From: a virus
Direction: 5' to 3' (one strand)
Virus record (IMG/VR): IMGVR_UViG_3300035703_000408
Location: 1 to 23,743 of that record
Length of the DNA stretch: 23,743 nt
Shown here: piece after piece, positions 507 to 23,743 of the stretch
Layout: each line of letters opens with the position of its first letter
How positions within the stretch are numbered: position 1 is the stretch's first letter
The notes under the pieces: model-generated
Database searches by the model: none
The model's input: only the letters and a program-made list of their open reading frames with translations
What the model was told of the DNA's origin: nothing
Translations under genes and position numbers: made by a program

Positions 507-2483
507 ATGGCAGACATTGACCCCAACCTGATATTTCAGGAGCCACCAGCGGAAACACCGGATTTGCGCTTTGGCTTTGTAAATCAGGCTGCGCCCAATG
601 ATGCTAATTTAGTATTTCAGGATTCGCCACTCACAAGCCCTGATTTGGTGTTTGGCGGCGGGTCGTTTACCGCACCAAGGCGGCGGGTAAGTATTGCGGC
701 GACGGTGCGCGGCGAGGTAAAGGTCAAGGCGCTAGGCTCACAGCCTGTAAAAACCTATGCAGCGGTATTGGTGGGCGGTGTCAACGTATCCGCTGGCGTG
801 TATTACGACAACCGTGTAACACCCTACTTGGATGCGCGGTTTATGACGGGGCAGCAAGCGGCTATTTCCCGTACCAGTGATAACGGCGGGGATTGGGGCG
901 TTAGTAAGTCCTCCGAGCGACAAGCAGAACCCGCATGGCAACCCGCAAAGTTCGGCTCATTGGAGCAGGGCGAATCCACCAAGGCATCGTTACCAATGGA
1001 GCGCGAGTTTGATGTGCTGCACACGCTTGGCGATGGGCGCACTGCGACCACCAGCACACGCACCGAGATTGCCAAGTTTGTTGATACGGCACGTTCAAGC
1101 AAGTACACCACGGCTGACCCGCTTCGCGCTATCAGCGCATCGGGTATGCAAGCGGGTATTTTCAAGGTGCAGTCGCGGGGGCAGGATTGGCAGGGCGGTG
1201 TACCACGGCAGACTATCAAAGGCGGCAGCATTGGCAAGGGCATTGCTAACCAAGGCCATAACGGGCTGCAATCGGGCTGGATACTGGCAGGGCGGGGCAA
1301 GGCAGGGGTAAGTAAGCCACCAGAGCCACCCAAGCCACCGATACCGATTAAGTTGCCAGAGGTGGTGACTTCACACCTGCTGTTCCAGCATCCGCCTATA
1401 ACCGGAATACCGACACTTATCTTTGGCGGTTTGTCCGGCAGCGTCATTCCAGTTACCAATACCAAAATCGTTCCAGTTCGGAGGGTCTATATTGTGATTA
1501 ACAACGCATCATTGCGGCGGGTTGATGGGAACATCCAACTGCCAGTATTAGGTATGTCATTGAGTCTGGACACCGATTCATGGACATGGGGCTTTAACGC
1601 TTCACTGGCTGGTACCGCATTGTCCAGCATTGAGCCTGGCAATAACAACACGCCGGTCGAAGTCGAAGCACTTATCAATGGCGTAGCGTATCGGGCGCTG
1701 ATTGAGCGCGTTTCCCGTAGTCGGGAGTTTGGCAAGACTGACATTAAGGTGCAGGGGCGCGGCAAGAGTGCGCTACTCGATAGCCCATACGCACCGTCGC
1801 TCAACTTCAACAACGAAGCCGACCGGACAGCGCAACAACTGATGAACGATGCGCTGACATACAACGGAGCTTCTATCGGCTGGTCGGTGGATTGGGGTAT
1901 CACCGATTGGCTAGTACCGGCTGGCGTTTTTGCACACCAGGGCAGCTACGTCGGGGCGCTAAACAAGATTGCCAACGCTGCGGGCGCATACATTCAACCG
2001 TCCCCCGTTGCTCAGACAGTGCGCGTTCTACCCCGTTACAAAGCGGCACCCTGGGAGTGGGACACTATCACACCTGACTTCGAGTTACCGGCAGATTTGA
2101 CGACGACCGAAAACACCGAATGGTTGTGGAAGCCGAAATATGAGCGCGTGTATGTGTCGGGCATCGAGAACGGGGTTTTTGCACAGGTGACAAAACGGGG
2201 CGGCACTGGCGCATTGCTGGCACCGATGGTCACGGACGAACTGATGACCGACGTTGCAGCGGCCAGACAGCGCGGTATTGCCGTTTTGTCGGACACCGGA
2301 CGCATAGCCAATATCACCATTAAAGTTCCAGTGTTGCAAGAGACTGGAATCATTACCCCTGGCAAGTTTATTCGTTACGTTGACGGTGGGACAACCCGCA
2401 TTGGGGTTGTTCGTTCCGTGGGCGTGGATGTTTCCATGCCTGAGATTTACCAGACGTTAGGAGTCGAAAGTCATGTCATTTAA
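507..2483 (+). CDS. Tail hub / baseplate-like protein with three internal LxFQxPP...LxFG repeats
   Basis: This 658-aa protein starts immediately after the preceding stop. The N-terminus carries two copies of a 17-residue motif of the form NL(I/V)FQ-(E/D)-x-P-x(4)-PDL-x-FG at residues 7-23 and 34-50, and a third copy (HLLFQHPPI...LIFGG) lies near 290-307. Between copies 2 and 3 is a low-complexity, G/S/T-rich region ending in a proline run (PPEPPKPPIPIKLP). Residues about 325-658 form a continuous domain with features like RSREFGKTDIKVQGRGKSALL and ADRTAQQLMNDALTYNG, the style of tail hub proteins of the gp27/GpD type in siphophages and transposable phages. It probably sits at the tail tip, linking tube to fibres or spike. 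The hub assignment is family-level recognition plus context. The N-terminal repeats may bind a partner. Confidence 0.65.
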   Translation: MADIDPNLIFQEPPAETPDLRFGFVNQAAPNDANLVFQDSPLTSPDLVFGGGSFTAPRRRVSIAATVRGEVKVKALGSQPVKTYAAVLVGGVNVSAGVYYDNRVTPYLDARFMTGQQAAISRTSDNGGDWGVSKSSERQAEPAWQPAKFGSLEQGESTKASLPMEREFDVLHTLGDGRTATTSTRTEIAKFVDTARSSKYTTADPLRAISASGMQAGIFKVQSRGQDWQGGVPRQTIKGGSIGKGIANQGHNGLQSGWILAGRGKAGVSKPPEPPKPPIPIKLPEVVTSHLLFQHPPITGIPTLIFGGLSGSVIPVTNTKIVPVRRVYIVINNASLRRVDGNIQLPVLGMSLSLDTDSWTWGFNASLAGTALSSIEPGNNNTPVEVEALINGVAYRALIERVSRSREFGKTDIKVQGRGKSALLDSPYAPSLNFNNEADRTAQQLMNDALTYNGASIGWSVDWGITDWLVPAGVFAHQGSYVGALNKIANAAGAYIQPSPVAQTVRVLPRYKAAPWEWDTITPDFELPADLTTTENTEWLWKPKYERVYVSGIENGVFAQVTKRGGTGALLAPMVTDELMTDVAAARQRGIAVLSDTGRIANITIKVPVLQETGIITPGKFIRYVDGGTTRIGVVRSVGVDVSMPEIYQTLGVESHVI

Positions 2484-2703
2484 TCCATACAAATTGCTTT
2501 TAGAGTTAATACCCAAATCCGACCTAATAATTGGAATTGTTCATAAAATATCGAACGGAGTAGCAACTATCAACATTGATGGCGGTGGTATAATCAAGGC
2601 TCGTTGCAACGACTCAATAAAAATTGGCGATAAAGTCTTTGTAAAAGACAATAATGTTGAGGGAAAAGCCCCGAATATCCCGTTGAGCGTCATCGAAGTA
2701 TGA
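2473..2703 (+). CDS. Small tail-module protein, 76 aa, possible OB/beta-barrel fold
   Basis: The gene overlaps the end of the hub-like gene by 11 bases, so translation is probably coupled. The protein has an alternating hydrophobic pattern (LIIGIVHKISNGVATINID, then GDKVFVKDN) typical of a small beta-barrel. It ends in EGKAPNIPLSVIEV, resembling small proteins placed after tail hubs in other phages. Codon use is clearly more AT-rich than in the gene upstream, suggesting a different recent history. It is the last gene of the late module in this window; the att region follows. Its function is unknown; a tail-tip accessory role is inferred from position. Confidence 0.65.
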   Translation: MSFNPYKLLLELIPKSDLIIGIVHKISNGVATINIDGGGIIKARCNDSIKIGDKVFVKDNNVEGKAPNIPLSVIEV

Positions 2704-2782
2704 TGTGTTGCATCGTTATAAGTAGTCAGGAAAACGGTTTTTTTACTATTTTTTTGTAAGTCGTTACTTTTAAATGACGTTT

Positions 2783-2831
2783 TCGGATTGCAAATCCGGC
2801 TAGAACGGTTCGACTCCGTTCCGCGCCTCCA
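2783..2831 (+). other. attP core: 3' half of a tRNA-Cys(GCA) gene
   Basis: The segment has the layout of a tRNA-Cys from the anticodon arm to CCA. There is an anticodon stem (2783-2787 with 2795-2799), loop TTGCAAA with anticodon GCA at 2790-2792, a short variable loop CTAG, and a perfect T-arm (AACGG, TTCGACT, CCGTT). The acceptor strand CCGCGCC, discriminator T and encoded CCA follow. No 5' half (a GGCGCGG acceptor strand and D-arm) lies upstream, so it is not a complete tRNA. Phages that integrate into tRNA genes carry such 3' ends to restore the tRNA after recombination, and the integrase starts about 210 bases downstream. I read this as the attP identity segment, with crossover probably near the anticodon loop. 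Confidence 0.85.
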
Positions 2832-2858
2832 AAATCCCCAATAAAATCAACAACTTAC

Positions 2859-2879
2859 AGAAGCAGCTAGATTGCTTCT
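2859..2879. repeat. 7-bp inverted repeat beside attP
   Basis: AGAAGCA at 2859-2865 pairs with TGCTTCT at 2873-2879 around a 7-base loop. No T-run follows, so it is not a standard terminator. It lies between the tRNA fragment and int and may be a protein-binding site of the recombination complex. Confidence 0.35.
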
Positions 2880-2917
2880 AACCCCTATTGTGCTGAAATT
2901 ACCCTGAAAGTCGGGTG

Positions 2918-2951
2918 AAACCGCACGAAAACCGTTTCAAAAACCGCACGA
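2918..2951. repeat. Direct repeats AAACCGCACGA, candidate integrase arm-type sites
   Basis: AAACCGCACGA occurs at 2918-2928 and again at 2941-2951, start to start 23 bases, between the att core and int. The segment between them contains AAAACCGTTT (2928-2937), whose reverse complement AAACGGTTTT lies at about 2732-2741 on the other side of the core. Tyrosine integrases of the lambda type bind short direct repeats flanking the core, so these are reasonable arm-site candidates. This is inference from position and repetition only. Confidence 0.4.
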
Positions 2952-2979
2952 TTCAATATTGTTTGTCCGTAGCGTCGAG

Positions 2980-3008
2980 TTGCACATTTTCGTTCTTTCC
3001 TGTAGTAT
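2980..3008 (+). promoter_or_regulatory. Candidate promoter of the integrase gene
   Basis: TTGCAC (2980-2985) and TAGTAT (3003-3008) are separated by exactly 17 bases, a good sigma70-type match. Transcription would begin near 3015, followed by the ribosome binding site GGAAGGA (3026-3032) and the ATG at 3040. The 336-base stretch 2704-3039 otherwise holds the att core and the repeats listed here, with no gene. Confidence 0.5.
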
Positions 3009-3039
3009 TTTTTCATTTCAACAACGGAAGGACTTAAAA

Positions 3040-4263
3040 ATGGCTGCTGTACGCAAAACACGGTCGGGTAAATATGAATTGTGCATATCCCACCAACTAC
3101 TACCCAAGCGACTGTACTTTACCTTTGAGTCGGAGGTTGAAGCTGAAAACTACGCACTTGAAGCTGAGAAGTGGTTGAAGGCTGGCATTGTACCGGCAGC
3201 ACTGGTGGCACACAAAAAGGATTCAGCGGCCAGAGCCGAGGATTCGACCATGCAAGCGTTGTTGTTGCGCTGGTGCAATGCAGGTCGGCTATCAAAAACT
3301 GACCAGGACTTGATAAGCTGGATGACCAGTGACAAGGTTTTGATGAACGTCAGACTATCGGGACTAACCTACCCTTGGGCTGAATCATGGGTGGAGGACA
3401 TGAAACTGAGTCGAAACCTTGCTCCAAGTTCAATTCGGCAACGGGTTCAAGCCGTTTCAAAAGCAATCGACTGGCACATTCGCTCAAACCCTCACGGCAA
3501 TGTAGTCAACCCTTTGAAGCTGTTACCAAGGGGGTATTCGATTTATCACGAAGCGGAGGCGAGGGTTTTGCGAAACAAAGGGCAGGATGCGAAGCATGAC
3601 CAAGTACGCAACCGGCGACTGTTACCAGGTGAGTTCGAGAAAATTAGGGAAGTGCTGCGCGGAGAACGAAAAAAGCCAAACTCAGAAAGGGGAGTGGGTT
3701 TACATGACGGTGCAGCCATGTTGGTGCTTTTTGAAACAATTGTTTATACGGGCGCTCGATTGCGAGAAGCCTACACGCTGAGAAAAGATTGTGTGGACTT
3801 GATTGGGCGAACCATCAAGATTAAGACCACAAAGCAGCGGCATGGGAAAGTTGCCTATCGAACTGTTCCTATCCGACCGGAATTGATTGAAACTCTGCGA
3901 AACTACATTGAAGTGGTGCCAGGGGATTTAGTTTTCCCATTTTGGGATGGCGACCCCAATACATTGAGACTTGCCAGTGGGCGATTGTCGCACCGCTTTA
4001 CGAGCATATTTCAACACGCAGAATGTGAAGGGCTTACTGAACACGATTTACGACACGAAGCGACCTGCCAGTGGTTTGAACTGCGCGATGCTAACGGGCG
4101 CTGGTTGTTCCGACCGGAGGAAATTAACAAAATCATGGGCTGGTCGGCCACTTCGGTAATGTCGGCGCGGTATGCCTCTTTCCGCGCTGAGAGTTTGTCA
4201 GACCGGCTATGGGAGGGGCTGCGCCCAAATGTTCAGCAAGGTTCTTCTTTGCCAACTCATTGA
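3040..4263 (+). CDS. int: Tyrosine-type site-specific integrase
   Basis: The 407-aa protein is taken from ATG 3040 because GGAAGGA lies 7 bases upstream; a longer upstream open frame lacks such a signal. Residues about 1-60 look like an arm-binding domain (VRKTRSGKYEL). About 75-170 form the core-binding helical domain. The catalytic domain follows: R240 in TGARLREA, a beta-hairpin lysine near KTTKQRHGK, H335-x-x-R338-H339 in EHDLRHE, W368 in IMGWS in place of the usual histidine (a tolerated substitution), and the nucleophile Y378 in SARYASF. It would recombine the adjacent tRNA-Cys attP with the host tRNA-Cys gene. Its 3' end overlaps the excisionase-like gene on the other strand by 131 bases. 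Confidence 0.95.
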   Translation: MAAVRKTRSGKYELCISHQLLPKRLYFTFESEVEAENYALEAEKWLKAGIVPAALVAHKKDSAARAEDSTMQALLLRWCNAGRLSKTDQDLISWMTSDKVLMNVRLSGLTYPWAESWVEDMKLSRNLAPSSIRQRVQAVSKAIDWHIRSNPHGNVVNPLKLLPRGYSIYHEAEARVLRNKGQDAKHDQVRNRRLLPGEFEKIREVLRGERKKPNSERGVGLHDGAAMLVLFETIVYTGARLREAYTLRKDCVDLIGRTIKIKTTKQRHGKVAYRTVPIRPELIETLRNYIEVVPGDLVFPFWDGDPNTLRLASGRLSHRFTSIFQHAECEGLTEHDLRHEATCQWFELRDANGRWLFRPEEINKIMGWSATSVMSARYASFRAESLSDRLWEGLRPNVQQGSSLPTH

Positions 4264-4767: not shown

Positions 4768-4783
4768 ATAGCAATTTTGCTAT
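4768..4783 (-). terminator. Weak hairpin with T-run after the helicase gene
   Basis: ATAGCAA and TTGCTAT pair around a 2-base loop and overlap the helicase stop codon. Read leftward the stem is followed by GTTTTTATTT, which fits a weak factor-independent terminator or an operator. The nearby ATTAGCATAAGCTAAAT resembles the GCTAA-type motifs in other control regions of the window. Confidence 0.4.
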
Positions 4784-7080
4784 AAATTGTACTTTCTTTT
4801 CATAGCATCTTTTAGCGCATCCTGTACTGACGCTTTGGTTATTAAGCGGGGCAGTACAGTGGTTTGCTCAATGGTGTCCTTTGCCACTATTCGGTAACGG
4901 TACACAGCGCGGTTGTGCCCCGATTGAAGCTGGCGAGTCGGGCCAATGCGTTCAATCACTTGTTCGTCGTATTCCAGGTTCCAACCCGTCGAAAAGTCAA
5001 CAAGGATTCGACCACCATCTTGCAGGTTCAAGCCATGTCCGGCACTGGCAGGGTGGACAATCAGCATTGGGATTTTTCCCTTGTTCCAGTCGTCAATCAT
5101 TCTTGGGTCGTTGTTCAAGACCTTGGCCTTGGGGAAGGCTTTGACAATCTTTTCCTTTTCGGGGACAAACTGATAGGCGACTAGCAGAGGTTCACCATTG
5201 GTTTCTTCGACAATCGAGCGCAAAGCATCAATTTTTTCATCATGTAAATCGACCCATTCACGACTTTCTGGATTGACGAAAACAACTCCGCTACCTATTT
5301 GCAAACACTTGTTGGAACGGGCGGCAGCGTTAAACACTTCCACCTCATGCTCGTTGATTTCCGCAAACAGTTTTGACTCTAAATCGTCATAAATCTGACG
5401 GGCTTTGGGCGGTAAGTCCACCAATACGATATGCTCAATCGGTTTCTTAATATCAAACCAATCTTTCGGGTCAATGGTGATAGTTATGTCTTTGAGGGCG
5501 GCTTCAATCTCAGGTTGTGCGTGTTTCAGTGGTTCCAAAGTGGTGTATCCACTAGAGTTCTGCACGTTCCTAAACCAGCGGCTTTCAAACGCTGAAAAGC
5601 TGCTACCTAATCGCTGACCTTTATCCACGTACCAGTTCTGACCCCAAAGGTCTTGCACACCATTAGGGGCGGGGCTTCCGGTCAGATTGACCCAACGCTT
5701 GACCTTTTTAAATGCGACTTTTGCCAGTGCTTTCGCCCTGACCGAGCCTTGACCCGTTAAAAACTCCTTGCCTTTGGTGCTTTTCTGCAAGCTAATTCTC
5801 AACCCTTTAAGGCGGGTGCAGTTGTGAACAAGAACCCCGCCGGCAAAGTATTCATGGGCATCTTCAACTTCGATGTCCCACACAGTTGTTCCACTTGTGT
5901 GTTGGATATGCGAAACACTTGCCACCCCAATTCTTTCAAGGTGGCCTCTTTCTTTCTGTCCATCTGCTGAACTGAGTCGGCTTTGTGCGAAACCCCATCT
6001 ATTTCCAGACAAATCATCACCACCGGCCAAGCAAAATCCGGTTTGTAGCTTGGGGGGATGTTGGGTGTCGATGCTCCTTTTGTCTTTATTGGCAGGTTCC
6101 ACACCCAACCGCTGACAAGATGCTCCGACGCAAGAGACTCTATTCGACTCATCCCCCTGCCGTTCCCACCTCGATTGCGTGGTGTTATCAAATCCCTGCC
6201 CGACAAGGCACGACTCAATTTCTGTTTCGTCACTTCTCGCATCGGAACCCCTGCGTTCCAACTCCTGTTTATCGCCTGCCACTCGTTCAGTTTTTTGGCA
6301 TGGCTTTGTAACTTCTCTTTCGGGGTGTTGCTTGTCCAATTCAGCGTCGAACACGACCTGCTGCAAAACTTTCCGGTCGTTTCTGCGATTGCCCTGCTGC
6401 GTTGAATTGCAAACATCGCCCCGCAGTGCTGACACTGGCGCAAATAGAGTAGTGGAACATCGCAAGTCTTTAGCTTCCTGCCAACCACTTTCAGTCCAAA
6501 ACAAGTGGCTTGGTGTACAGACAATACGTGTTCCGTTGATGAGTTGAATTTCGATAAGCGACCTTGAGGATTTTTCATATTTGCGAACTACTTTTTTGGG
6601 GCCAATTGATGTAAGAACCAAGTCACCAACCTGTAATTTTTCAATTGGCGTTGTTCCTTCGGGGGTAGAAACGGGCGTACCCGATACAAAACATTCGTCA
6701 GCTATCACCATATCCCACGGCCAGTTATCACCCACAGCTTCAACCAACCACTCCAGATTGTCGTAATTGACGCAGGTTATATCTGCACCAGAGCCGAGCG
6801 CATCGAGCCGTTGTTTTGGCGTACCAATGCACACGGCAACCGTCAGGTGTCCAAACGATTCTCGCCACTTGGTAACTTCGTGCGCCCAGGTGGAGGTTGC
6901 CACTCTTTTAGGTGCAATAACTAGGGCGCGGGTGGCTTCACCAAAGACCCGCAACGCATCAAACGCTGCAATGCTCACACTGGTTTTGCCCATACCCATT
7001 CCGGCCCACACATTACAGCGGGGATGGGTAAAGACAAAATCAAGTATCAGCTTTTGATACGGGCGGGGGGTGAATTTCAT
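4780..7080 (-). CDS. SNF2-type DNA helicase interrupted by an intein (766-aa precursor)
   Basis: The exteins together form a helicase of about 475 aa. Motif I is GMGMGKT (27-33), motif Ia ALVIAPKRV (52-60), and motif II is split: VIADE (125-129) joins CTRLKG (421-426) after splicing to restore DECTRLK, the usual phage motif II region. Motif III is TGSPAPNG (467-474), motif V is HPASAGHGLNLQ (676-687) and motif VI is ERIGPTRQLQ (710-719). Such helicases accompany phage DNA replication or recombination modules with VRR-NUC, DUF2800 and DUF2815 proteins, as here. The start overlaps the dUTPase stop as ATGA. Residues 130-420 are the intein. The insertion splits the Walker B site, so the precursor should be inactive until spliced. 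Confidence 0.92.
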   Translation of the reverse strand: MKFTPRPYQKLILDFVFTHPRCNVWAGMGMGKTSVSIAAFDALRVFGEATRALVIAPKRVATSTWAHEVTKWRESFGHLTVAVCIGTPKQRLDALGSGADITCVNYDNLEWLVEAVGDNWPWDMVIADECFVSGTPVSTPEGTTPIEKLQVGDLVLTSIGPKKVVRKYEKSSRSLIEIQLINGTRIVCTPSHLFWTESGWQEAKDLRCSTTLFAPVSALRGDVCNSTQQGNRRNDRKVLQQVVFDAELDKQHPEREVTKPCQKTERVAGDKQELERRGSDARSDETEIESCLVGQGFDNTTQSRWERQGDESNRVSCVGASCQRLGVEPANKDKRSIDTQHPPKLQTGFCLAGGDDLSGNRWGFAQSRLSSADGQKERGHLERIGVASVSHIQHTSGTTVWDIEVEDAHEYFAGGVLVHNCTRLKGLRISLQKSTKGKEFLTGQGSVRAKALAKVAFKKVKRWVNLTGSPAPNGVQDLWGQNWYVDKGQRLGSSFSAFESRWFRNVQNSSGYTTLEPLKHAQPEIEAALKDITITIDPKDWFDIKKPIEHIVLVDLPPKARQIYDDLESKLFAEINEHEVEVFNAAARSNKCLQIGSGVVFVNPESREWVDLHDEKIDALRSIVEETNGEPLLVAYQFVPEKEKIVKAFPKAKVLNNDPRMIDDWNKGKIPMLIVHPASAGHGLNLQDGGRILVDFSTGWNLEYDEQVIERIGPTRQLQSGHNRAVYRYRIVAKDTIEQTTVLPRLITKASVQDALKDAMKRKYNL
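5799..6578 (-). CDS. EDxHD (Vsr-like) homing endonuclease nested out of frame inside the intein
   Basis: This 259-aa frame is +1 relative to the helicase-intein frame. Residues 1-45 merely overlap intein block B coding. Real domain signals then follow: a zinc ribbon with C49, C52, C72 and C76 (CQHC...FCSRSC), a NUMOD3-like DNA-binding segment (VTKQKLSRALSGR, about 116-128), and an endonuclease core with E147 (SRIESL), D181 (YKPDFAW), E192-x-D194 and H198 (LEIDGVSH), and D207 (MDRKK), then LGWQVFRI. These match the E, D, x-H, D arrangement of Vsr-like EDxHD homing enzymes. It presumably cuts intein-less helicase genes. No ribosome binding site precedes ATG 6578. The in-frame TAG four codons upstream limits the start to this ATG or to a later entry by +1 frameshifting. 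The stop lies about 20 bases inside the C-extein. Confidence 0.8.
   Translation of the reverse strand: MKNPQGRLSKFNSSTEHVLSVHQATCFGLKVVGRKLKTCDVPLLYLRQCQHCGAMFAIQRSRAIAETTGKFCSRSCSTLNWTSNTPKEKLQSHAKKLNEWQAINRSWNAGVPMREVTKQKLSRALSGRDLITPRNRGGNGRGMSRIESLASEHLVSGWVWNLPIKTKGASTPNIPPSYKPDFAWPVVMICLEIDGVSHKADSVQQMDRKKEATLKELGWQVFRISNTQVEQLCGTSKLKMPMNTLPAGFLFTTAPALKG
5821..6693 (-). mobile_element. Class 1 intein (about 291 aa) inserted in helicase motif II
   Basis: The intein runs from C130 to N420 of the precursor. Block A is CFVSGTPVSTPEG...IEKLQVGDLV, block B is IVCTPSHLFWT with the T-x-x-H pattern, block F is VWDIEVEDAHEYFA, and block G is GVLVHN followed by the extein cysteine C421. All canonical splicing residues are present (C1, TxxH, penultimate H, terminal N, +1 C), so it should splice. 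The linker between blocks B and F, about residues 212-390, has no recognisable LAGLIDADG or HNH endonuclease in this frame. It is an odd hydrophilic sequence rich in Q, R, D, E, G and S. In the +1 frame the same DNA encodes a homing endonuclease (separate entry). The split-intein-sized blocks and intact motifs argue against a decayed element. Confidence 0.9.
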
Positions 7081-7535
7081 TTTCCGGTACTTCCAAACCC
7101 GCCTTCGCCACGGTCGGTTTCTGACAGTGCATCGGCCTTCACCAATTCAAAACGTGGCACTGGCACTATCATCGCTTGTGCTATGCGCTCACCTTGTTGG
7201 ACAATATAGGTGTCTTTTCCGTCATTGTTCAAACGGACACACACCTCGCCACGGTAGTCCGAGTCGATGACACCCACGCAGTTAGCCAAGCGCAAACCGT
7301 GTTTGTAACCGTGACCGCTGCGGGAGTACAGCATCATGGCGTGACCGGCTGGCACCTCAACGGCAATGCCAGTGCTGATAGTTGCGGCACGACCAGCGGC
7401 AATAGCCACGGTATCGGTTGCATAAACGTCAAAACAAGCTGCGCCTTCTGTGCCGTAGGTCGGGAGTTGGGCAGCATCGGTTAAGAGTTTTACCTTCACG
7501 CTGTTAGCGGCGGGTGCGGATTTTGTAGCTTTCAT
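7077..7535 (-). CDS. dut: dUTP diphosphatase (dUTPase)
   Basis: This 152-aa trimeric-type dUTPase hydrolyses dUTP to dUMP and pyrophosphate, lowering uracil incorporation and supplying dTMP synthesis. All five family motifs are visible: GAACFDVYA (I), SRSGHG (II), GVIDSDYRGEV (III) with the catalytic aspartate and substrate-contact tyrosine, GERIAQAMIVP (IV) and GEGGFGSTG (V), the flexible C-terminal lid. Length is normal for the family. It is coupled on both sides by ATGA overlaps, to the helicase downstream and the 88-aa gene upstream, placing nucleotide-pool control inside the replication operon. Confidence 0.97.
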   Translation of the reverse strand: MKATKSAPAANSVKVKLLTDAAQLPTYGTEGAACFDVYATDTVAIAAGRAATISTGIAVEVPAGHAMMLYSRSGHGYKHGLRLANCVGVIDSDYRGEVCVRLNNDGKDTYIVQQGERIAQAMIVPVPRFELVKADALSETDRGEGGFGSTGK

Positions 7536-7798
7536 ACAAGTCTTTCAGGTTTAAAAATTAAAGTGATTGCATAACGAACCCGTTGCCAAAACGGTAGCTT
7601 GGCGGGGTTAGGTCGGGGTGTGCCGTTGGTCGGCAACGGGCACCAGGCGACAAAACTTTCATTGAGTTCACCGAACCAGTTACCAACCACAGCGACACCC
7701 CCGATTGTCCTCAACAACACCTTTGAGCCCTTGTACGGGCATACTTCGTGCCTCCAGTACAAGTGTTCGGGCGGGGCTGCAACGTGGGTCAATTTCAT
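7532..7798 (-). CDS. Phage protein of unknown function, 88 aa
   Basis: I start the gene at ATG 7798, giving MKLTHVAAPPEHLYW, because this ATG forms an ATGA overlap with the stop of the VRR-NUC gene; a longer frame running into that gene is less plausible. The C-terminus overlaps the dUTPase start by the same ATGA arrangement. The middle (LLRTIGGVAVVGNW, NESFVAWCPLP) looks beta-structured, and the C-terminus is hydrophobic and basic (RVRYAITLIFKPERL). No family is recognised. Its place in a strictly coupled run of nucleotide and DNA enzymes suggests a replication accessory role. Confidence 0.7.
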   Translation of the reverse strand: MKLTHVAAPPEHLYWRHEVCPYKGSKVLLRTIGGVAVVGNWFGELNESFVAWCPLPTNGTPRPNPAKLPFWQRVRYAITLIFKPERLV

Positions 7799-8073
7799 AT
7801 AGAGTCCACCACATTGACCTGATACCCAAGAGCGCGGAGGCGTTCGTGTTCTCTTGCTTGGGCTTCGGTGGGCTTTCCACCTGGGCGCTTGCACTCCGTG
7901 AACTGAACGTACCTAGCGACCACATGGCGGGCGCTTTCAGGGATGGGTAACAGGTCTAAGCGGTCGGGCACCGAGCGTCGGGCGGGGGAGGTAAACTTGT
8001 AGCTGATACCACCCTCTTTTTTGATGCTGGCGACATGGTGCTTTTCCACATCGCTTTCACGCAGTTCTTTCAT
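7795..8073 (-). CDS. VRR-NUC domain nuclease
   Basis: This 92-aa stand-alone VRR-NUC protein belongs to the PD-(D/E)XK superfamily. The core is visible as GGISYKFTSPARRSVPDRLDLL, with the aspartate in VPDRLDL, then FTECKRPGGKPTEAQ with the E-x-K pair and downstream Q, and ALGYQVNVVDS at the end. Stand-alone phage members are expected to cut branched or flapped DNA, as structure-selective resolvases do. ATGA overlaps couple it to the polymerase upstream and to the 88-aa gene downstream. Family assignment is strong; the substrate is inferred from relatives. Confidence 0.93.
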   Translation of the reverse strand: MKELRESDVEKHHVASIKKEGGISYKFTSPARRSVPDRLDLLPIPESARHVVARYVQFTECKRPGGKPTEAQAREHERLRALGYQVNVVDSI

Positions 8074-9854
8074 ACTCCAATTTCCTTTAACAAATCACTG
8101 GCTTCTGCCAGGTAAAAGTCATAATCAATGTCACTTGGCAGGGTGTCGGGCAGCGTCATTAAGGGCATTGCACAGTCAGAACCACCTACCTTGTTACCGT
8201 TTTTCACGTACTCAATATGGGTTTGTGATTGGGTGCTGCGATACCAGCGAACCACTTTGCCGAGGTATTCGTTACCCCACTTACCACCACCCGTCACCCG
8301 CTTGGTACGGAGGAATTTGCGAACATCCTGACAGCCCAAAATCGTTTGCGCTATCGGTGTTTTTTCATTGAGGAACAGGCAAACCGCTTCGGACACAATC
8401 TGGTTGTCGGGGTTCTTCATCACGCCTGGCGTTGCCAGTACACCCTTGGTCTTGTAGCTACCATCGGTCTTGAGTGCGAGGTAGTTATTCACATCGCGGC
8501 TGAACAGTGCGCGGTAGCAGGTTTCTTCGGTTTCTAGGCCGGTTTCTGCTTCCCACTGCTTGACGATTTGTAGCATCACAGGTTCAAGCTGTGCGGGGCA
8601 AGCCATGACGATTCCATCGGTATTTGCGCTGACAACGGGGATGCTGGCAGCTTCCATGCGCTCAATCAGCATGAGCAATGCCAACTGACCAGTGACGGTA
8701 ACTTGAATCATCAAGTTAGGGGCGTACAAGCTGGCATAAGGTGAACCTAGCTTTCCGTAGGTCGAATTTAATGTGAGCTTAAGTGTCTGCGCTTTGGACT
8801 TGTCACCCGACTTCTTGGCTGCAATACGCCTATCAAAAAAATCTTTGTAAACCGACTGAAAATGCTTGCCCATGTTAGGCGGGAATAACCCACACTGGAT
8901 AATCAGGGAAGGGTAGTAAGACACCACATCGCGGTCACGGAGCAGGGTGTTTTCAGTGGCAATATGGGATTTGCTTTTCTCGCATGAGTGCAAACCACCA
9001 ATACCCATCTGGTACTTTGATTGACCTATTTCCAGTGTGCGACCTAGAGCTTTTGGTAACGCTACTTGACCGTTATCTTTAATCAGAAATTCAGACTCCA
9101 ACACCGATTCCAATACAGACACTAGAAGCGGAGATTTAAACTTGATAAACGCGGGCGCTTGGTATTTGAAAACTGTGCCTGACTCAACCTTTGACTTTTC
9201 AACTGGGCTACCTTTGAGTTGTGCCACACGGCTTTTAATCACAGCTTCCGCAATTTGAGCGTCGCTTTTGCTTCGGAAATCCATACCAAATTCCGCACTG
9301 AGCAGTTCGCGGGTTTTGATAATGTCATCCTTGGGATTTGTAACCACTTTCCACAGGTCAATCGTTGTGTCCAAGTCGTTCACACAGTATTCACGAAGCA
9401 ACTGACGTTGTTCGGGAGTGATGCTGGCAGCGGGGTCAATGGGTAAGTCTTGCAGCTTTTTAGAGTGCAGTCGGGCACCGTACAGCTTCAAGCCGATACC
9501 CACACCAGGAGCAACTTCAATGAGGTCGATGTGGTCGCAGGGCAGGGTGCGAAAGTCATAAAACCGTTCGATTTCCCAACTCTTTTTCTCACCCAAAATG
9601 ATTAAGTCAGCGGCTTGTTTAAGTTGCTCACAGGTGAATTTTTTGAGTGCCAATGTCAATATCGGCATATCAAAATTCAAGCCGTTGAACGTGATGATTC
9701 GATGCGATTTCAGGATTGACAAGACACTTTGACGGTCAAAATCGCACCCATCAAACATTTCAAAAGACCGGACTTTGCCGGTGTCTATACTTTTGAACTG
9801 AGCCAAAAAGTAGTTGGAATAAACCTCAATATCGAGAACGAGTGTTTGTTTCAT
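8070..9854 (-). CDS. B-family-like phage DNA polymerase with 3'-5' exonuclease
   Basis: The 594-aa protein carries an N-terminal proofreading exonuclease: Exo I LDIE (D8, E10), Exo II TFNGLNFD (N60, D62) and Exo III YCVNDLDTT (Y156, D160). The polymerase palm has motif A DVVSYYPS (D309), motif B KLTLNSTYGKLG (K359, N363, Y366, G367) and motif C ANTDG (D413). The first aspartate of the usual DTD is asparagine, as in several phage polymerases. The protein is short for family B (commonly 750 aa or more) and appears to lack large insertions and much of a thumb. It would replicate the phage genome with the DUF2815 protein and primase-helicase. No Shine-Dalgarno precedes the ATG; a long RNA stem ends 4 bases before it. 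Confidence 0.9.
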   Translation of the reverse strand: MKQTLVLDIEVYSNYFLAQFKSIDTGKVRSFEMFDGCDFDRQSVLSILKSHRIITFNGLNFDMPILTLALKKFTCEQLKQAADLIILGEKKSWEIERFYDFRTLPCDHIDLIEVAPGVGIGLKLYGARLHSKKLQDLPIDPAASITPEQRQLLREYCVNDLDTTIDLWKVVTNPKDDIIKTRELLSAEFGMDFRSKSDAQIAEAVIKSRVAQLKGSPVEKSKVESGTVFKYQAPAFIKFKSPLLVSVLESVLESEFLIKDNGQVALPKALGRTLEIGQSKYQMGIGGLHSCEKSKSHIATENTLLRDRDVVSYYPSLIIQCGLFPPNMGKHFQSVYKDFFDRRIAAKKSGDKSKAQTLKLTLNSTYGKLGSPYASLYAPNLMIQVTVTGQLALLMLIERMEAASIPVVSANTDGIVMACPAQLEPVMLQIVKQWEAETGLETEETCYRALFSRDVNNYLALKTDGSYKTKGVLATPGVMKNPDNQIVSEAVCLFLNEKTPIAQTILGCQDVRKFLRTKRVTGGGKWGNEYLGKVVRWYRSTQSQTHIEYVKNGNKVGGSDCAMPLMTLPDTLPSDIDYDFYLAEASDLLKEIGV

Positions 9855-9858
9855 AATG

Positions 9859-9989
9859 TTTTAAAGTAGTTTGGTGATGCAACTGGCAACTCACATGAAG
9901 CAGTGTCTTTTCAACAACTAAAAGGAAGTGCCTAACCACAGCGGCGCTAACCCGCTGCTTACCAGTTACATCACCAAACCACCCTTAAA
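9859..9989 (-). ncRNA. Candidate structured leader RNA upstream of the polymerase gene
   Basis: In leftward RNA, 9989-9962 pairs with 9886-9859 in a stem of 28 positions with only one mismatch. Several of the pairs are G-U wobbles, which fit RNA of this strand and would be A-C mismatches on the other. Inside it, 9960-9955 pairs with 9903-9898 (AAGCAG with CTGCTT). A hairpin at 9924-9907 and a small GC hairpin at about 9954-9942 complete a multibranched fold. The stem closes 4 bases from the polymerase ATG and buries the place where a ribosome binding site should be. It lies in the only sizeable gap of the operon core. It could be a translational switch, an RNase III site or an independent RNA. 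I recognise no known class. Confidence 0.55.
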
Positions 9990-10003
9990 GGGCAGTTTGA
10001 AGG

Positions 10004-10279
10004 TCAACGAACTCGCCACAGACCGACGCACAATTTCTGAGTGACAGGGTGTTTGGCTTTCTTGATAGAAAACTTTTTACCCTCCACGTCCTGATACATT
10101 GCACTGGCTTGGTATATTTTGGTGCGAACATTTTTGGCAACTTTGTAAAAGTTTTCCTCCATGTCCACATCAAAATACATTGAATAACCAATCTGTAGCC
10201 GAGCCAAAACGCTAGAAAACTTTGAGCGTGGCCGACCCTTGCGGGTGGAAGGCTCTTTGACACGCGCATAGACTTCCAT
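10004..10279 (-). CDS. Small basic phage protein of unknown function, 91 aa
   Basis: The start is supported by AAGGTG 7 bases upstream, overlapping the end of the preceding gene. The protein is basic at its N-terminus (STRKGRPRSKF), has a regular middle (IGYSMYFDVDMEENFYKVAKNVRTKIYQ) and ends in GLWRVR, a tail common in short phage proteins of this general type. An overlapping frame at 9985-10269 is judged a shadow because it lacks a ribosome binding site and has atypical composition. It sits between the ssDNA-binding-like gene and the polymerase leader, so a DNA-binding or replication accessory role is plausible but unproven. Confidence 0.75.
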   Translation of the reverse strand: MEVYARVKEPSTRKGRPRSKFSSVLARLQIGYSMYFDVDMEENFYKVAKNVRTKIYQASAMYQDVEGKKFSIKKAKHPVTQKLCVGLWRVR

Positions 10280-10290
10280 TGCGTTTCACC

Positions 10291-10860
10291 TTAGAACAGG
10301 TCGCTTCCGGCCATTTCTTCTTCCAGTGCATCGAAGTCATCGACGCTACCTTTAGAACCACCGAACGAATCACCATCACCGGCAAACTGAACAGCCAACA
10401 AAGTTGCGTCGATGCGTTTACCTAACCCTGGTTTGTCGTGGGCATAGATGTCAATCGTGCAGTTCACATAGCACCCGCCGTAGGGCTTACCGTCGGCTTC
10501 GGTGAGTGGGGATTTGTCGCGGTCGATGACCAGTGGGCGGGTCTTGTTACGGGCGGTAATGTAGAAGTTACCTTCATAGCCGTTGCGAACATCACCGTTT
10601 TTATCGCGGTTACTATCACCTTTGCGGAGACATTTTTTGTCGCTGGATAACTCCGACAAAATTGCTTGGGCATTTTTGCCGAACTTTTCCTGAGCAACTT
10701 TCATCACTTCGGCACTGGCAACTTTGTATGCGTCAGAACCAGGTGCGAAAATAAATTGGGCACCGAACTTTGGTACACCCACTGCACCGGCTGGTGGGTT
10801 GCCTGGTTGGAACAGGTCGGGGAAAGACAAACGAACATTTTTCAATAAAACTTTAGCCAT
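10291..10860 (-). CDS. DUF2815 family ssDNA-binding-like protein
   Basis: I start at ATG 10860 (MAKVLLKNVRLSFPDLF), since the upstream extension begins at TTG and GGAA lies before the ATG. The 189-aa protein shows DUF2815 features: KNVRLSFPDLFQP at the start, PKFGAQFIFAPGSDAYK, YITARNKTRPLVIDRD and GGCYVNCTIDIYAHD. The tail is acidic (DDFDALEEEMAGSDLF), as in single-stranded DNA-binding proteins that recruit partners through the C-terminus. Related phage proteins have an OB fold and bind ssDNA. It presumably coats replication or recombination intermediates for the polymerase and helicase of the same operon. Confidence 0.88.
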   Translation of the reverse strand: MAKVLLKNVRLSFPDLFQPGNPPAGAVGVPKFGAQFIFAPGSDAYKVASAEVMKVAQEKFGKNAQAILSELSSDKKCLRKGDSNRDKNGDVRNGYEGNFYITARNKTRPLVIDRDKSPLTEADGKPYGGCYVNCTIDIYAHDKPGLGKRIDATLLAVQFAGDGDSFGGSKGSVDDFDALEEEMAGSDLF

Positions 10861-10892
10861 GATAAAAAATTCCAAATTAAAAAGAACACAAA

Positions 10893-12209
10893 TTACAAAA
10901 GGTCGGTAGAAACTGCTACCACAGGCATCGCTTGGAAGTCATCCAAGGTATGTTTCGCTGGCCTTGGGTCGGTTTCCAAGGCGATTTCGGGCTTGCCTTC
11001 CGGCTGGACAATCAACTCAGCAAGTCGTTTCCAGCGGGTCGGGCCAATGGGCAGCTTTTCAGCGGCTTCCATGTTTTTAGGTTTGCGACCACCTGAGAGC
11101 TTTTCGGCAACGGTGGGGCTGATAATCTTTTTGGTGTAAATCACCGAGTCGGGCAGGTGCATGGACTCCATCAATTCGATGACCTCTTGTTCATCACGCC
11201 ATTGACGGATACCTTTGCGACCTTCAACGAGCTTGTAGGACAAACCATCGGCGCGAAGCACTGGTTTGCCGTTATCCAAGGCGGCAAGGGTACGGGCTTC
11301 AACATCGGAAACCCAAGCCTTGATGAAGTCCAGTTTTGCGTACAAGTCGCCTAACTCTGTATCACGCACAGGCTTTGTACGGGCATTGGTCAAGTCGTCA
11401 AAGTCACCGAAAACTTCACTCAGTGCCGCATCTTCACGCGCCTTGCAAGTCAGCTTGGCGCTGCAAAAATGGCAGTTGTCAGCGGTCGGGTTGAACGGCG
11501 CATCGTCATCGCGGGTGCGGTCGGCAGCGACCTTGACACCAGCAATAAACGCTTCCAGTTCTTCAACCGTCATGCTGTGTTCTGAAACATGATTCAGCTT
11601 GGGTTGAACAATGACCAGACGCACGTTCTTGAAGTCACCCATCCAACCGAACTGACGCATGGCACCGCTGGCGTAAATTGCCAACTGACTATTGGGCACA
11701 CCGTCAACCACAGCATCAATGCGACCGGAGCCAAACTTGGCATCAATCACAAACAAGGTGTCACCGGCAGCAATGATTGCATCACCAGTTCCAGTGGCCT
11801 TGTCCTCGCCGGTAATGTGGTCGATGGGCAACTTTTGTTCCACCACCAACTCACCACCAGTCAAGGTCACTTGTTCACGGACATAGGACACATAGGTACC
11901 AATGCGCTCTATAGAGGCTTCGTCCAGTGTCAATGTTTCAACGACAGTGCTACCTTCGGGAGGTACGCCGAGGGTTTCAACTTCGTGGTCGGGCTTGTCT
12001 GCGGTTGTGTAAAACACCACGGATTTACCCAAGAACTGAGACACCTCCAAACCATCTTCAAGGGCGACACTAGACACCAGGTGTTCAGCGGTGCCCATGC
12101 GGGATGCTGCATTGGCTTTGCGGGGGATACCCTCAGAAGCCTTGATGCTGGCGGCACAACTCATCCAGCGTTTGGATGACGAAGGCGACAATTTTGCGTG
12201 GTCGCTCAT
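10893..12209 (-). CDS. DUF2800 family protein, Cas4/RecB-like PD-(D/E)XK nuclease
   Basis: The 438-aa protein begins MSDHAKLSPSSSKRWMSC, the usual start of this family. An ATG-rich boundary places its start directly after the stop of the 192-aa gene. The nuclease core shows GTGDAIIAAGDTLFVIDAKFGSG with the D...D-x-K pattern, then QLAIYASGA (motif IV-like). A cysteine cluster (CHFCSAKLTC) follows, like the four-cysteine region of Cas4/AddB-type nucleases, though an iron-sulphur cluster is only inferred. In phages the family occurs beside DUF2815 and a polymerase, and probably makes recombinogenic ends or processes replication intermediates. The C-terminal third is less conserved. Confidence 0.88.
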   Translation of the reverse strand: MSDHAKLSPSSSKRWMSCAASIKASEGIPRKANAASRMGTAEHLVSSVALEDGLEVSQFLGKSVVFYTTADKPDHEVETLGVPPEGSTVVETLTLDEASIERIGTYVSYVREQVTLTGGELVVEQKLPIDHITGEDKATGTGDAIIAAGDTLFVIDAKFGSGRIDAVVDGVPNSQLAIYASGAMRQFGWMGDFKNVRLVIVQPKLNHVSEHSMTVEELEAFIAGVKVAADRTRDDDAPFNPTADNCHFCSAKLTCKAREDAALSEVFGDFDDLTNARTKPVRDTELGDLYAKLDFIKAWVSDVEARTLAALDNGKPVLRADGLSYKLVEGRKGIRQWRDEQEVIELMESMHLPDSVIYTKKIISPTVAEKLSGGRKPKNMEAAEKLPIGPTRWKRLAELIVQPEGKPEIALETDPRPAKHTLDDFQAMPVVAVSTDLL

Positions 12210-18947: not shown

Positions 18948-18978
18948 AAGCCCCTCGGCACTTGATACAGAGGGGCTT
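18948..18978. terminator. 9-bp GC hairpin between the Cro-like gene and the primase
   Basis: AAGCCCCTC (18948-18956) and GAGGGGCTT (18970-18978) form a perfect stem with a 13-base loop. Rightward only TTT follows; leftward the stem is followed by CTTTTTT. It therefore looks like a terminator for leftward transcription and at most an attenuator for the rightward early transcript that must continue into the primase gene. Confidence 0.6.
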
Positions 18979-19055
18979 TGACGTTCTCTAACGGAACATA
19001 CAGAGACAAAACGATTGACTACCAATCAACCATTAACTTGCAGGAATATTTTACC

Positions 19056-21572
19056 ATGCTTTCTATCAAAAACCAAGCAATCGCTAAATTTGACATTCCA
19101 GAGTTGCTAAAAGCGCAACACAATTGGCTGGTCTGGAGATTGACGCAAAAACCAGGGCAGAAAAAACCATCCAAAATTCCCTATTACGCGACCAACGGCG
19201 TGATGCGTTCGGGTGAACAGGGTAGTCAAGAGGACAGGGCACAACTTGTTAGCTTTGAGGAAGCACTGGCAGCGGCAGAGCGCGGCGGGTTCTCAGGCGT
19301 TGGCATGGCACTGCTACCTGGCTTGGACATTGTTGCACTCGACTTTGACAACTGCGTGGACGACACTGGCAAGATAACGGTACCCTTTATTACCGATGTG
19401 GCGACTTCGACATATACCGAGTATTCACCAAGCGGTACCGGAATCCGCGCTTTCATGCGCGGAACACTACCGAGTAAAAAGGACACAAAACCGCTTGACG
19501 GTGGCTTTGCCGTAGAGGTGTTTGGTGACAGCGGCTTTGTGACCGTCACCGGCAATGTGGTACCTGAATGTGCCATGTTCGGCTGTGAAACCGAGGTGGT
19601 GGAGTTGACCGAGGACGTACTGGCGCTGTACCGCGACCGCTTTGGTGAAGTGCCGAGCGCGGGTGGGTCGGCGGGTGCCAGTGGTGCGTTGGATGAAAAC
19701 GACGCTTTCATGCTGAGTGTAAACTTGACACTTGGCTGGACGTTGCAGGATGCCAGAGGGGTGTTGTTTGACTGCGACCCTGGGTGCGACCGTGACCATT
19801 GGGTGAAAGCGGGTATGGCGTTGCATTATGAGTTGGGCGGGTCGGACGAGGCGTTGCGGCTGTACGATGAGTGGTCATCGGGCGGGGCAAACTATGTCAG
19901 TTTTGCCGATGTGCAAGGTCGCTGGCGGTCGTTCAAACCAAGCAAGGGTAACGGCAATCAAATTACAGGCAAGTGGCTGGTTCATTGGCAAGGTGAGAGT
20001 AATAGGCGTAAGGCTTACGCTCAGACTGAGAAGTGGAAGGCTGAAATCAAGAGCACGAGGGACGAATACACGCTCCGCGAGTGTGTCGTCCCAAAGATAA
20101 AAGCTGACCCGATATTGGGCAAGCTGGAGCGTGAATCACTGGCACAGGATTTGCGCGATGCTTTGCGTAGCGCAGGTACGAAGCTACCTATTGGTGAGTG
20201 TCGCAAGATGATTAGCCCTATCAGGGTCAAGTCCGACGGGGATATACCGGAGTGCTTTCAGGACGTGGTGTATGTGACCGATATGGACAAGTTTTATTGC
20301 AAAAAAAGCGGTGAGATTTTGACCGTACAGGGGTTCAACAGCAAATTCAATCGTGACATGCCGAGAGATGAACACGGCAACGTTGTTGCATCGGCAAACG
20401 TATTAGCCACTGAGAAGTACCAGATACCAACGGTGTTACGGGTCATGTATGCACCCCACATGCCAGAGTTTTTCAGTGACCCATGCAACTATACCGAGGA
20501 TGCGGCAACTTTTTTAAACAGTTTCCGACCCGAATCAGTGCCAGTGGAAGCGCAAGAGATTGTGGCAGGTAGCGACGGTGCTGTGGCTGTGGACAGATTG
20601 AAGTTTCACATCGAGCAGGTGTTGTGCGGTGGGCGGCAGGATGTTGCCGACTTGCTGATTAGTTATCTGGCGTTCTGTGTACAAAACCCTGGTGTTAAGG
20701 TGCGCTGGATGCCAGTCATAAAGGGTCTGGAAGGGGACGGTAAATCTTTGCTTCTCACGCTAATGGCAAACGTGATGGGTATTAACAACGTCAAGCCCAT
20801 TAGTTTGACAGAAATATTATCAGCTTTCACCGGATGGGGCGAGGGTGCTTGCTTTGCAGCTTTTGAAGAATTGAGGCTGCAAGGACACAACCGTTTTGAC
20901 GTACACAACACCATTAAACCGTTCATCACAAACGACATGGTGAATATTCACAAGAAGGGGCGCGATGGTTATAAGGCTATCAATGTGACCAACTACATAG
21001 CATTTACCAACTCGAAGGATGCTTTACCTATTGGTGACAGCGACCGACGCTTTATGGTCATTTTCACAAAATTTGAATCAAGGGTACAACTTGATTCGCT
21101 TCTGGCTTCTCGCGGTGGGGCGGCGCATTACTTCTCGCAGCTTAACGACTCCTTTGCTACGCATTTTGCTACTTTCCGTAGGTGGCTATTGGACTACCCA
21201 ATGGCAGCGGGTTTTAACCCCAACAGTACAGCACCCATTACCGATGAAAAACAGCGAATGATTGCCATGAATGTCAGCGAGGAATCCATAGCAATAAAGG
21301 ATGTAATTGCAGAAGGTGGCATGGGTATCACTGAAAACGCTGTGGTGTCCAGCATTTTGAGGGACAGAGTTAATGCTTTTGAGGGCGATATACACATGGA
21401 CAAACGCACATTCAGCATTGAAATGAAAAAACTAGGATGGGAACAACACGCAAAAACTGAACGAGTTTGTGGAAAACCCGACCGAATTTGGCTCAGAGGT
21501 GGTGTAACTTGGAACAAAGAGTTAAAGGCAAAACTTGAAAATCCGACAGGTACACAAGGATTTGAGTTCTGA
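19056..21572 (+). CDS. Phage primase-helicase (prim-pol-like N-terminus, SF3/D5-type helicase)
   Basis: ATG 19056 is preceded by CAGGAA; the longer frame begins at TTG within a hairpin. The 838-aa protein has an N-terminal primase-polymerase-like domain (NWLVWRLTQK, GVGMALLPGLDIVALDFDN with the metal-binding D-x-D, EYSPSGTGIRAFMRG). A PriCT-like domain follows (GCDRDHWVKAGMALHYELGG, LYDEWSSGG), about residues 220-325. The C-terminal superfamily 3-type ATPase has Walker A GLEGDGKS (557-564), Walker B CFAAFEEL (599-606) and sensor FTNSKDALPIGDSDRRF with N652 and the arginine finger region. It should synthesise primers and unwind DNA. The adjacent iteron region downstream is its likely origin. 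Confidence 0.92.
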   Translation: MLSIKNQAIAKFDIPELLKAQHNWLVWRLTQKPGQKKPSKIPYYATNGVMRSGEQGSQEDRAQLVSFEEALAAAERGGFSGVGMALLPGLDIVALDFDNCVDDTGKITVPFITDVATSTYTEYSPSGTGIRAFMRGTLPSKKDTKPLDGGFAVEVFGDSGFVTVTGNVVPECAMFGCETEVVELTEDVLALYRDRFGEVPSAGGSAGASGALDENDAFMLSVNLTLGWTLQDARGVLFDCDPGCDRDHWVKAGMALHYELGGSDEALRLYDEWSSGGANYVSFADVQGRWRSFKPSKGNGNQITGKWLVHWQGESNRRKAYAQTEKWKAEIKSTRDEYTLRECVVPKIKADPILGKLERESLAQDLRDALRSAGTKLPIGECRKMISPIRVKSDGDIPECFQDVVYVTDMDKFYCKKSGEILTVQGFNSKFNRDMPRDEHGNVVASANVLATEKYQIPTVLRVMYAPHMPEFFSDPCNYTEDAATFLNSFRPESVPVEAQEIVAGSDGAVAVDRLKFHIEQVLCGGRQDVADLLISYLAFCVQNPGVKVRWMPVIKGLEGDGKSLLLTLMANVMGINNVKPISLTEILSAFTGWGEGACFAAFEELRLQGHNRFDVHNTIKPFITNDMVNIHKKGRDGYKAINVTNYIAFTNSKDALPIGDSDRRFMVIFTKFESRVQLDSLLASRGGAAHYFSQLNDSFATHFATFRRWLLDYPMAAGFNPNSTAPITDEKQRMIAMNVSEESIAIKDVIAEGGMGITENAVVSSILRDRVNAFEGDIHMDKRTFSIEMKKLGWEQHAKTERVCGKPDRIWLRGGVTWNKELKAKLENPTGTQGFEF

Positions 21573-23235: not shown

Positions 23236-23421
23236 GGCTCACTTTTCAAATGAACAGGGCAGCTTTTCCAATTTCAAAATGAATAGGGTCACTTTCATTT
23301 TGAACAGGGTCACTTTTCAAATGAACGGGCTAACTTTTCAAATGAACAGGGTCACTTTTCAAATGAACAGGGTCACTTTCATTTTGAACAGGCTACCTTT
23401 TCAAATGAACGGGCTGACTTT
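23236..23421. repeat. Array of about nine 21-bp repeats, GGGTCACTTTTCAAATGAACA type
   Basis: The unit GGGTCACTTTTCAAATGAACA recurs about nine times with variation. Two alternating forms differ in the centre: CTTTTCAAATGAAC and CTTTCATTTTGAAC. The second centre is close to the first read in reverse. Repeated terminal motifs of this sort are found at the ends of some IS21-family elements, but no transposase is present here. Frames through the array yield only the repetitive peptide MNRVTFQMNRVTF and are not genes. Confidence 0.75.
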
Positions 23422-23486
23422 TTGCCAGTGCATCGAGAGTAGTGCCAGCGGCTATCCTTACCAGGTATATAACATTCCATCAAAAT

Positions 23487-23743
23487 TGACCACTGCACCA
23501 CTGCAAAGCCTGACCACTGGCACCACTGCAAAGCCTGACCACTGCACCACTGCAAAGCCTGACCACTGCACCACTGCAAAGCCTGACCACTGCACCACTG
23601 CAAAGCCTGACCACTGGCACCACTGCAAAGCCTGACCACTGGCACCACTGCAAAGCCTGACCACTGCACCACTGCAAAGCCTGACCACTGCACCACTGCA
23701 AAGCCTGACCACTGCACCACTGCAAAGCCTGACCACTGGCACC
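23487..23743. repeat. 24/25-bp tandem repeat array reaching the window edge
   Basis: Ten full copies and a partial copy of TGACCACTGCACCACTGCAAAGCC occur head to tail with no spacers. Copies 2, 6 and 7 (and the partial eleventh) have one extra G, reading CCACTGGCACCACTG, giving 25 bases. Each unit contains CCACTG twice. It is a minisatellite-like array and not a CRISPR. It shares the CACTGGCA word that is over-represented throughout the window. The array may have broken the assembly, since it runs to the last base. Confidence 0.85.

Follow-up and report, generated by a model that had tools for sequence, protein, structure and literature searches.

A phage helicase intein with a putative homing endonuclease gene in the +1 frame of its linker

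The helicase gene and its intein

The window, i.e., the complete stretch of 23,743 nucleotides that was analyzed (positions 1 to 23,743 of the IMG/VR virus record IMGVR_UViG_3300035703_000408), carries on its minus strand a helicase gene interrupted by an intein. The following features were assigned in the helicase frame.

4780..7080, minus strand: SNF2/DEAD-type helicase precursor with intein, 766 aa, frame open throughout
5821..6693, minus strand: intein, 291 aa (precursor residues 130 to 420), C1...H-N/C+1, inserted after D-E of helicase motif II
6436..6693, minus strand: N-terminal half of the Hint splicing domain (intein residues 1 to 86), with conserved C1, G23, D24, and H63
5944..6435, minus strand: intein-frame linker (residues 87 to 250), predicted to be disordered, its DNA being that of the nuclease core
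5821..5943, minus strand: C-terminal half of the Hint splicing domain (intein residues 251 to 291), pLDDT 93 to 98

An earlier note on this DNA, made from the letters alone, had described a helicase frame open from end to end with complete splicing blocks, and both statements held. In Pfam, the precursor matched SNF2-rel_dom (3.7e-11) and Intein_splicing (4.4e-11), and it matched the PHROG 62 DNA helicase family with an E value of 2e-129. The closest intein-less relative found is the helicase of Curvibacter phage PCA1 (62.5% identity), which reads VIADESTKLKGL where the window has VIADE[intein]CTRLKGL; 37 of 45 bases before the insertion site and 25 of 45 after it are identical between the two. 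The intein begins with CFVSG and finishes with GVLVHN, followed by C, and it displays the class 1 signature, namely, C1, H63, the terminal H-N, and C+1. Its halves are not split but lie in one continuous frame (7080..4780), and profile matches in the PDB were to the PI-MtuI, gp41-1, and NrdJ-1 inteins. As the insertion falls within motif II, the unspliced helicase should, by what is known of helicase biology, be devoid of ATPase activity.

In the predicted structure of the intein, the Hint halves reach pLDDT values of 85 to 98 (mean per block), and the linker of about 165 residues stays near 50. Foldseek retrieved the gp41-1, Mtu RecA, and DnaB inteins with this model, the gp41-1 intein with an E value of 4e-7 and a TM score of 0.86 on the target; the two halves are accordingly modeled as a Hint fold.

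The window also carries a temperate-phage gene set (positions 507 to 4263 on the plus strand, 7077 to 12209 on the minus strand, and 18978 to 21572 on the plus strand) comprising a tail protein, an integrase, a dUTPase located beside the helicase, a DNA polymerase, an exonuclease-type protein, and a primase. In phage PCA1, too, the dUTPase gene precedes the helicase gene. In Salmonella phage wksl3 (L007:1495-3960), the related helicase is interrupted within its Walker A region (GSGK/C...HN/T) by a different insertion, also in frame, which seems to be a further intein with an insertion site of its own.

The nuclease reading frame

The region between the splicing halves is also open in the +1 frame, for which the following features were assigned; residue numbers are those of the 259-aa reading frame.

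5799..6578, minus strand: longest +1-frame version of the nuclease ORF, starting at ATG 6578, 259 aa, with DUF559 match
5799..6443, minus strand: likeliest extent of the nuclease gene, 214 aa from a TTG that aligns with the ATG of relatives
6351..6434, minus strand: zinc ribbon CxxC...CxxxC (residues 49 to 76), its four Cys present in 81 to 83 of 84 nucleases
6198..6269, minus strand: NUMOD3-like segment (residues 104 to 127), assigned by the motif N-P-M/V-P-M
5871..6164, minus strand: Vsr/EDxHD-like catalytic domain, with motifs invariant or nearly so in 84 sequences
5901..5933, minus strand: dual-coding stretch of low divergence, nuclease ELGWQVFRISN over RIGVASVSHIQH of the intein C domain

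It is this frame, and not that of the splicing domain, that matches DUF559 (PF04480; E value 3.2e-6, 27.4 bits versus a Pfam gathering cutoff of 20.6), as expected from the earlier proposal of an endonuclease encoded out of the splicing frame, and its product matches nucleases nested in phage helicase genes with E values down to 7e-8. The proposal had started the protein at ATG 6578, a choice that we would revise: TTG 6443 is the likelier start, located 250 nt into the intein (median start in relatives, 251.5), and the protein read from it, MRQCQHCG..., aligns with the MKC..C of relatives. Because homology places the start near this TTG, the first 45 residues read from ATG 6578 probably do not belong to the nuclease. 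The gene had further been said to occupy exactly the place of the endonuclease in in-frame inteins; it does lie inside the intein, but the final approximately 11 codons of its core extend into the C-terminal splicing domain, and the stop codon falls 22 nt within the C-extein.

The domains named in that proposal fared differently. The zinc ribbon was supported by the conservation of its cysteines. For the NUMOD3-like segment, P112 and M113 are invariant in a 16-sequence alignment, but Pfam gave no match to the segment, leaving the assignment to the motif only. The catalytic domain displays the motifs GGNG, D181, E192-x-D194-G-x-S-H198, D207, and GW...R..N, with D181, E192, D194, H198, and D207 as the invariant acidic/His set. 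Of the suggested EDxHD arrangement, D181, H198, and D207 are invariant in 84/84 sequences and are putative catalytic residues, but residue 147, E in the window, varies (62 Q and 22 E among the 84 nucleases) and corresponds to the first E of the I-Bth0305I motif, on the N-terminal helix, only by the numbering of the earlier note. All 14 family-invariant residues and the four zinc-ribbon cysteines are retained in the window. Two tandem zinc-ribbon-like CxxC/CxxxC motifs precede the nuclease in the loci L003:1967-2716 and L004:1943-2731, and a single one does so in the window.

The structure predicted for the nuclease from TTG 6443 has a mean pLDDT of 81, exceeding 90 in the catalytic domain. Its top Foldseek match was the catalytic domain of the homing endonuclease I-Bth0305I (PDB 3R3P; probability 0.99, TM score 0.59 on the target, E value 0.03). 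VIA-align gave ties or near-ties between 3HRL (Z 9.5), I-Bth0305I (Z 8.7), and Vsr (Z 8.5), with 3.0 Å over 79 residues for I-Bth0305I, and the sequence profile retrieved 3HRL with 2.6e-11 and I-Bth0305I (3R3P) with 0.025. Mitoribosomal chains also ranked high in the fold search; these were taken to reflect the common restriction-nuclease-like fold rather than relationship. Structure-based comparison of both frames, as suggested in the earlier note, thus assigns a predicted Hint fold to the intein and a predicted Vsr/PD-(D/E)XK-like catalytic fold of the I-Bth0305I/Vsr/DUF559 kind to the nuclease. With I-Bth0305I, Vsr, and DUF559 proteins the nuclease shares this fold and the D...E/x-D...H...D pattern; I-Bth0305I, unlike the window nuclease, is intron-encoded, and the DUF559 proteins of bacterial contigs in our data differ in standing alone without an intein.

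Distribution of the layout and selection on the two frames

In a direct scan of viral contigs, the window nuclease alone as query found no match; relatives were obtained only via tblastn against phages, followed by alignment-based scans. With the +1 protein as tblastn query, 40 annotated phages were matched, Corynebacterium phage phi673 being the only actinophage among them. The matched genes, among the matches listed, are annotated as helicase, as other ATPase-type or coiled-coil protein, or are unnamed, and frame arithmetic on five of these phages placed the nuclease in the +1 frame of the annotated gene. The alignment scan of viral contigs yielded 311 relatives, 80 of which were fetched. 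Of the 85 loci in the first set, 79 encoded the nuclease in the +1 frame of a single ORF that spans both splicing halves; an in-frame nuclease was seen in none of the 85. After further scans of viral and bacterial contigs, the final census comprised 154 non-identical copies with the nuclease in +1 in a single ORF with both splicing halves, including copies from the isolated phages CP-T1, phi673, and MR14 and from Vibrio phages; many stand-alone DUF559-like proteins without intein from bacterial genome contigs were not counted. The frame was checked in every fetched locus, and no nuclease in frame or in +2 was found.

The inteins are equally uniform. The insertion lies directly after D-E of motif II in 128 of 142 distinct inteins, all 142 of which start with C and end with N, nearly all being followed by C or S; C1, H63, and N291 are invariant across 50 aligned inteins. 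The window copy has no close relative, the best nuclease identity being 39%.

The census bears on the origin of the frame offset. From a single contig alone, it could not be excluded that sequencing or assembly indels had moved an in-frame nuclease out of frame. With 154 of 154 distinct copies from many contigs and isolate genomes in +1, both halves in one open frame, and the in-frame homologues considered in the earlier note not encountered, two assembly indels cannot explain the layout; this explanation is refuted by the census and retains next to no probability.

The dual opening itself had been estimated to arise by chance in fewer than one case in a thousand, which is about right as a first-order figure: upon synonymous shuffling of the helicase codons over the ORF, the +1 frame stayed open in 0.12% of trials, and upon shuffling of the nuclease codons, the helicase frame stayed open in 0.008%. 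These figures are modest evidence on their own; the comparative evidence is decisive. In the +1 overlap, helicase codon position 1 equals nuclease position 3. For 15 closely related pairs, the per-site change at the first, second, and third helicase positions was.276/.185/.447 in the N-terminal splicing domain; the nuclease core gave.401/.218/.208, and the C-terminal splicing domain gave.172/.133/.281. The pattern was similar with 16 pairs. Specifically, in the nuclease core helicase position 1 exceeded position 3 in 15/15 pairs, and nuclease position 3 exceeded nuclease position 2 likewise in 15/15. Wobble thus follows the nuclease frame within the overlap and the helicase frame on either side of it, indicating that selection in the overlap preserves the nuclease protein. 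As judged from these alignments, the nuclease frame is under purifying selection across the family, a result that favors the reading of the earlier note. In the dual-coding stretch, where the nuclease core ends over the first strand of the C-terminal splicing domain, positions 2 and 3 are the least divergent of any zone (15 pairs).

Since both frames are open, either could in principle be the passenger, and the +1 ORF might be a chance opening with the intein linker as the real product. The matches in Pfam, the PDB, and the fold searches all fall in the +1 frame, however, third-position wobble follows that frame, and the linker is predicted to be disordered and is hardly conserved; the codon-position test refutes a chance opening, to which we assign a negligible probability. 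In the intein frame, it is chiefly the absence of stops that is preserved. The window linker contains no stop, although synonymous shuffling of the nuclease codons predicts about 7; in a set of copies that had been chosen for an open intein frame, such shuffling introduced a mean of 7.7 intein-frame stops into each copy. Exceptions to the open-frame rule number 4 among the 158 distinct copies in which both halves were detected.

For the window copy itself, identity to the nearest relatives is 34 to 42% in the nuclease frame and 14 to 19% for the same bases read in the intein frame. Differences from the nearest relative amount to 0.66 at nuclease position 3 and to 0.46 and 0.41 at the others. 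Together with the intact invariant residues, the family pattern suggests that selection has also acted on this copy. One may still ask whether its nuclease frame is a decaying relic in an intein that splices but has lost homing: the copy represents a deep branch, lacks a Shine-Dalgarno sequence (see below), and its ORF continues into the C-extein. The frame is nevertheless intact over more than 210 codons, the residues invariant in the family are all kept, and differences are commonest at nuclease position 3, so that we regard decay as improbable, though it is the most serious of the alternatives.

Expression, proposed homing, and related elements

In the relatives, the first start codon is found approximately 250 nt into the intein, just 5' of the zinc ribbon, and is often preceded by GAGGT, which at the same time encodes E-V of the intein N domain. 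When the 45 nt before the first Cys were considered, 37 of 133 copies had a start codon with Shine-Dalgarno sequence in the nuclease frame; the corresponding numbers for the other two frames were 1 and 6. In the window copy, no Shine-Dalgarno sequence is recognizable at any candidate start; its nuclease may consequently be poorly made or silent, and its expression is the weakest link.

A programmed frameshift from the helicase frame would dispense with a separate start and yield a fusion of N-extein, N-terminal intein half, and nuclease instead of a separate protein. The missing Shine-Dalgarno sequence in the window and the extension of the +1 ORF upstream of the zinc ribbon in many copies would fit such a mechanism. 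The common -1 shift, however, reaches the other alternative frame and cannot reach +1, several relatives have a nuclease-frame stop one or a few codons before the start (in CP-T1, ORF from 1967 and ATG at 1970), and starts preceded by a Shine-Dalgarno sequence are concentrated in the nuclease frame. We therefore consider a frameshift quite unlikely.

The locus is very probably a mobile intein with a homing endonuclease gene nested in the +1 frame of its linker. According to this reading, the helicase would be translated straight through the intein, and the Hint halves would come together around the disordered linker and splice the intein out. Motif II (DE/C), without which the helicase would presumably be unable to hydrolyze ATP, would thereby be re-formed. 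Translation of the nuclease would begin independently on the helicase mRNA, at an internal start near 250 nt into the intein. With its zinc ribbon and its helical DNA-binding part, the nuclease would recognize the intein-less motif II of the helicase gene of a co-infecting phage and cut the empty site, and repair would copy intein and nuclease together. The sequence data establish the two conserved frames, selection on the nuclease frame, stop avoidance in the intein frame, the fixed insertion site, and similar elements in unrelated helicases, with both folds as predictions; from these, we infer splicing, nuclease translation, cleavage, and homing. That nuclease production would be decoupled from splicing, as the earlier note had suggested, is a sound inference.

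The textbook intein has its endonuclease built as a domain into the polypeptide that is spliced; nuclease dose then follows the dose of the host protein, and mutations in the nuclease can disturb splicing. With the two functions residing in separate proteins on shared DNA, an intein could gain a nuclease without compromising splicing. In large inteins of the PI-SceI and PI-MtuI type, as in the proposed element, the nuclease lies between the N and C splicing blocks and homing is into a conserved active-site motif, but the endonuclease belongs to the same polypeptide, whereas it is encoded as a separate +1-frame protein in 154/154 copies of the present family. In the public records examined, the entire frame is annotated as "helicase" or carries no name, which hides the nuclease and makes elements of this kind easy to miss. 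The arrangement provides a natural example of long dual-frame coding with clean opposing constraints.

Several loci have a different arrangement. In two of them, L069:2998-3639 (helicase from 3608) and L079:2956-3600 (helicase from 3566), a free-standing nuclease gene directly precedes an intein-less helicase gene; these nucleases are possibly ancestors or partners in collaborative homing. In three fractured loci (L054:2373-4340, L104:2169-4460, and L312:2501-4987), the splicing halves are in separate ORFs, with many helicase-frame stops between them and the nuclease ORF across the gap. L223, whose linker frame is interrupted by one stop, and L215, which is degenerate, were not counted as fractured; apart from L054, L104, L312, and L223, all copies with both halves are continuous. 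Dassa et al. are said to have described, in 2009, fractured genes with split inteins and an EDxHD homing endonuclease between the halves. Such elements resemble the present family in their phage-type hosts, gp41-1-like Hint fold, and Vsr-like nuclease gene between the halves, and the three fractured loci take that very form; the difference is that the intein here is a continuous cis intein overlapped by the nuclease in another frame.

Similar intein-nuclease units occur in unrelated helicases, with bit ratios of about 0.54 for the nuclease and 0.04 to 0.07 for the extein. Distance correlation was 0.62 between splicing domain and nuclease, compared to 0.50 and 0.58 for either versus the host. 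Both observations fit joint horizontal movement of the unit, although the difference between the correlations is not large. Chances are about even that the family represents a distinct and widespread class of mobile intein, with splicing and homing in overlapping frames of one segment and the nuclease expressed apart from the precursor, that is linked to fractured-gene elements via surviving intermediates, meaning the free-standing nuclease beside an intact helicase, the fractured intein, and the continuous overlapped intein. The layout suggests a path connecting fractured with continuous inteins, and it opens the acquisition and loss of endonucleases by inteins to testing.

The ShiLan element likewise has an out-of-frame nuclease in an insertion that is open in the host frame and spreads selfishly; its insertion is without a splicing domain and encodes an HNH nuclease, in contrast to the intact Hint domain and Vsr/EDxHD-like nuclease found here. 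Among the papers accessible, literature searches with varied wordings found none on a continuous intein with an out-of-frame nuclease, nor any experiment on a member of the family. A preprint (Gosselin et al., bioRxiv 2025, doi 10.1101/2025.01.02.630785) is cited in PMC11855218 for overlapping reading frames in actinobacteriophages; going by this citation, its inteins of "non-canonical architecture" may follow the same principle.

At the end of the contig, the window contains a tandem array with a 24-base unit (positions 23487 to 23743, 10.5 copies, 97% matches), and a second array with a 21-base unit is located at positions 23272 to 23422 (7 copies); these arrays may have broken the assembly.
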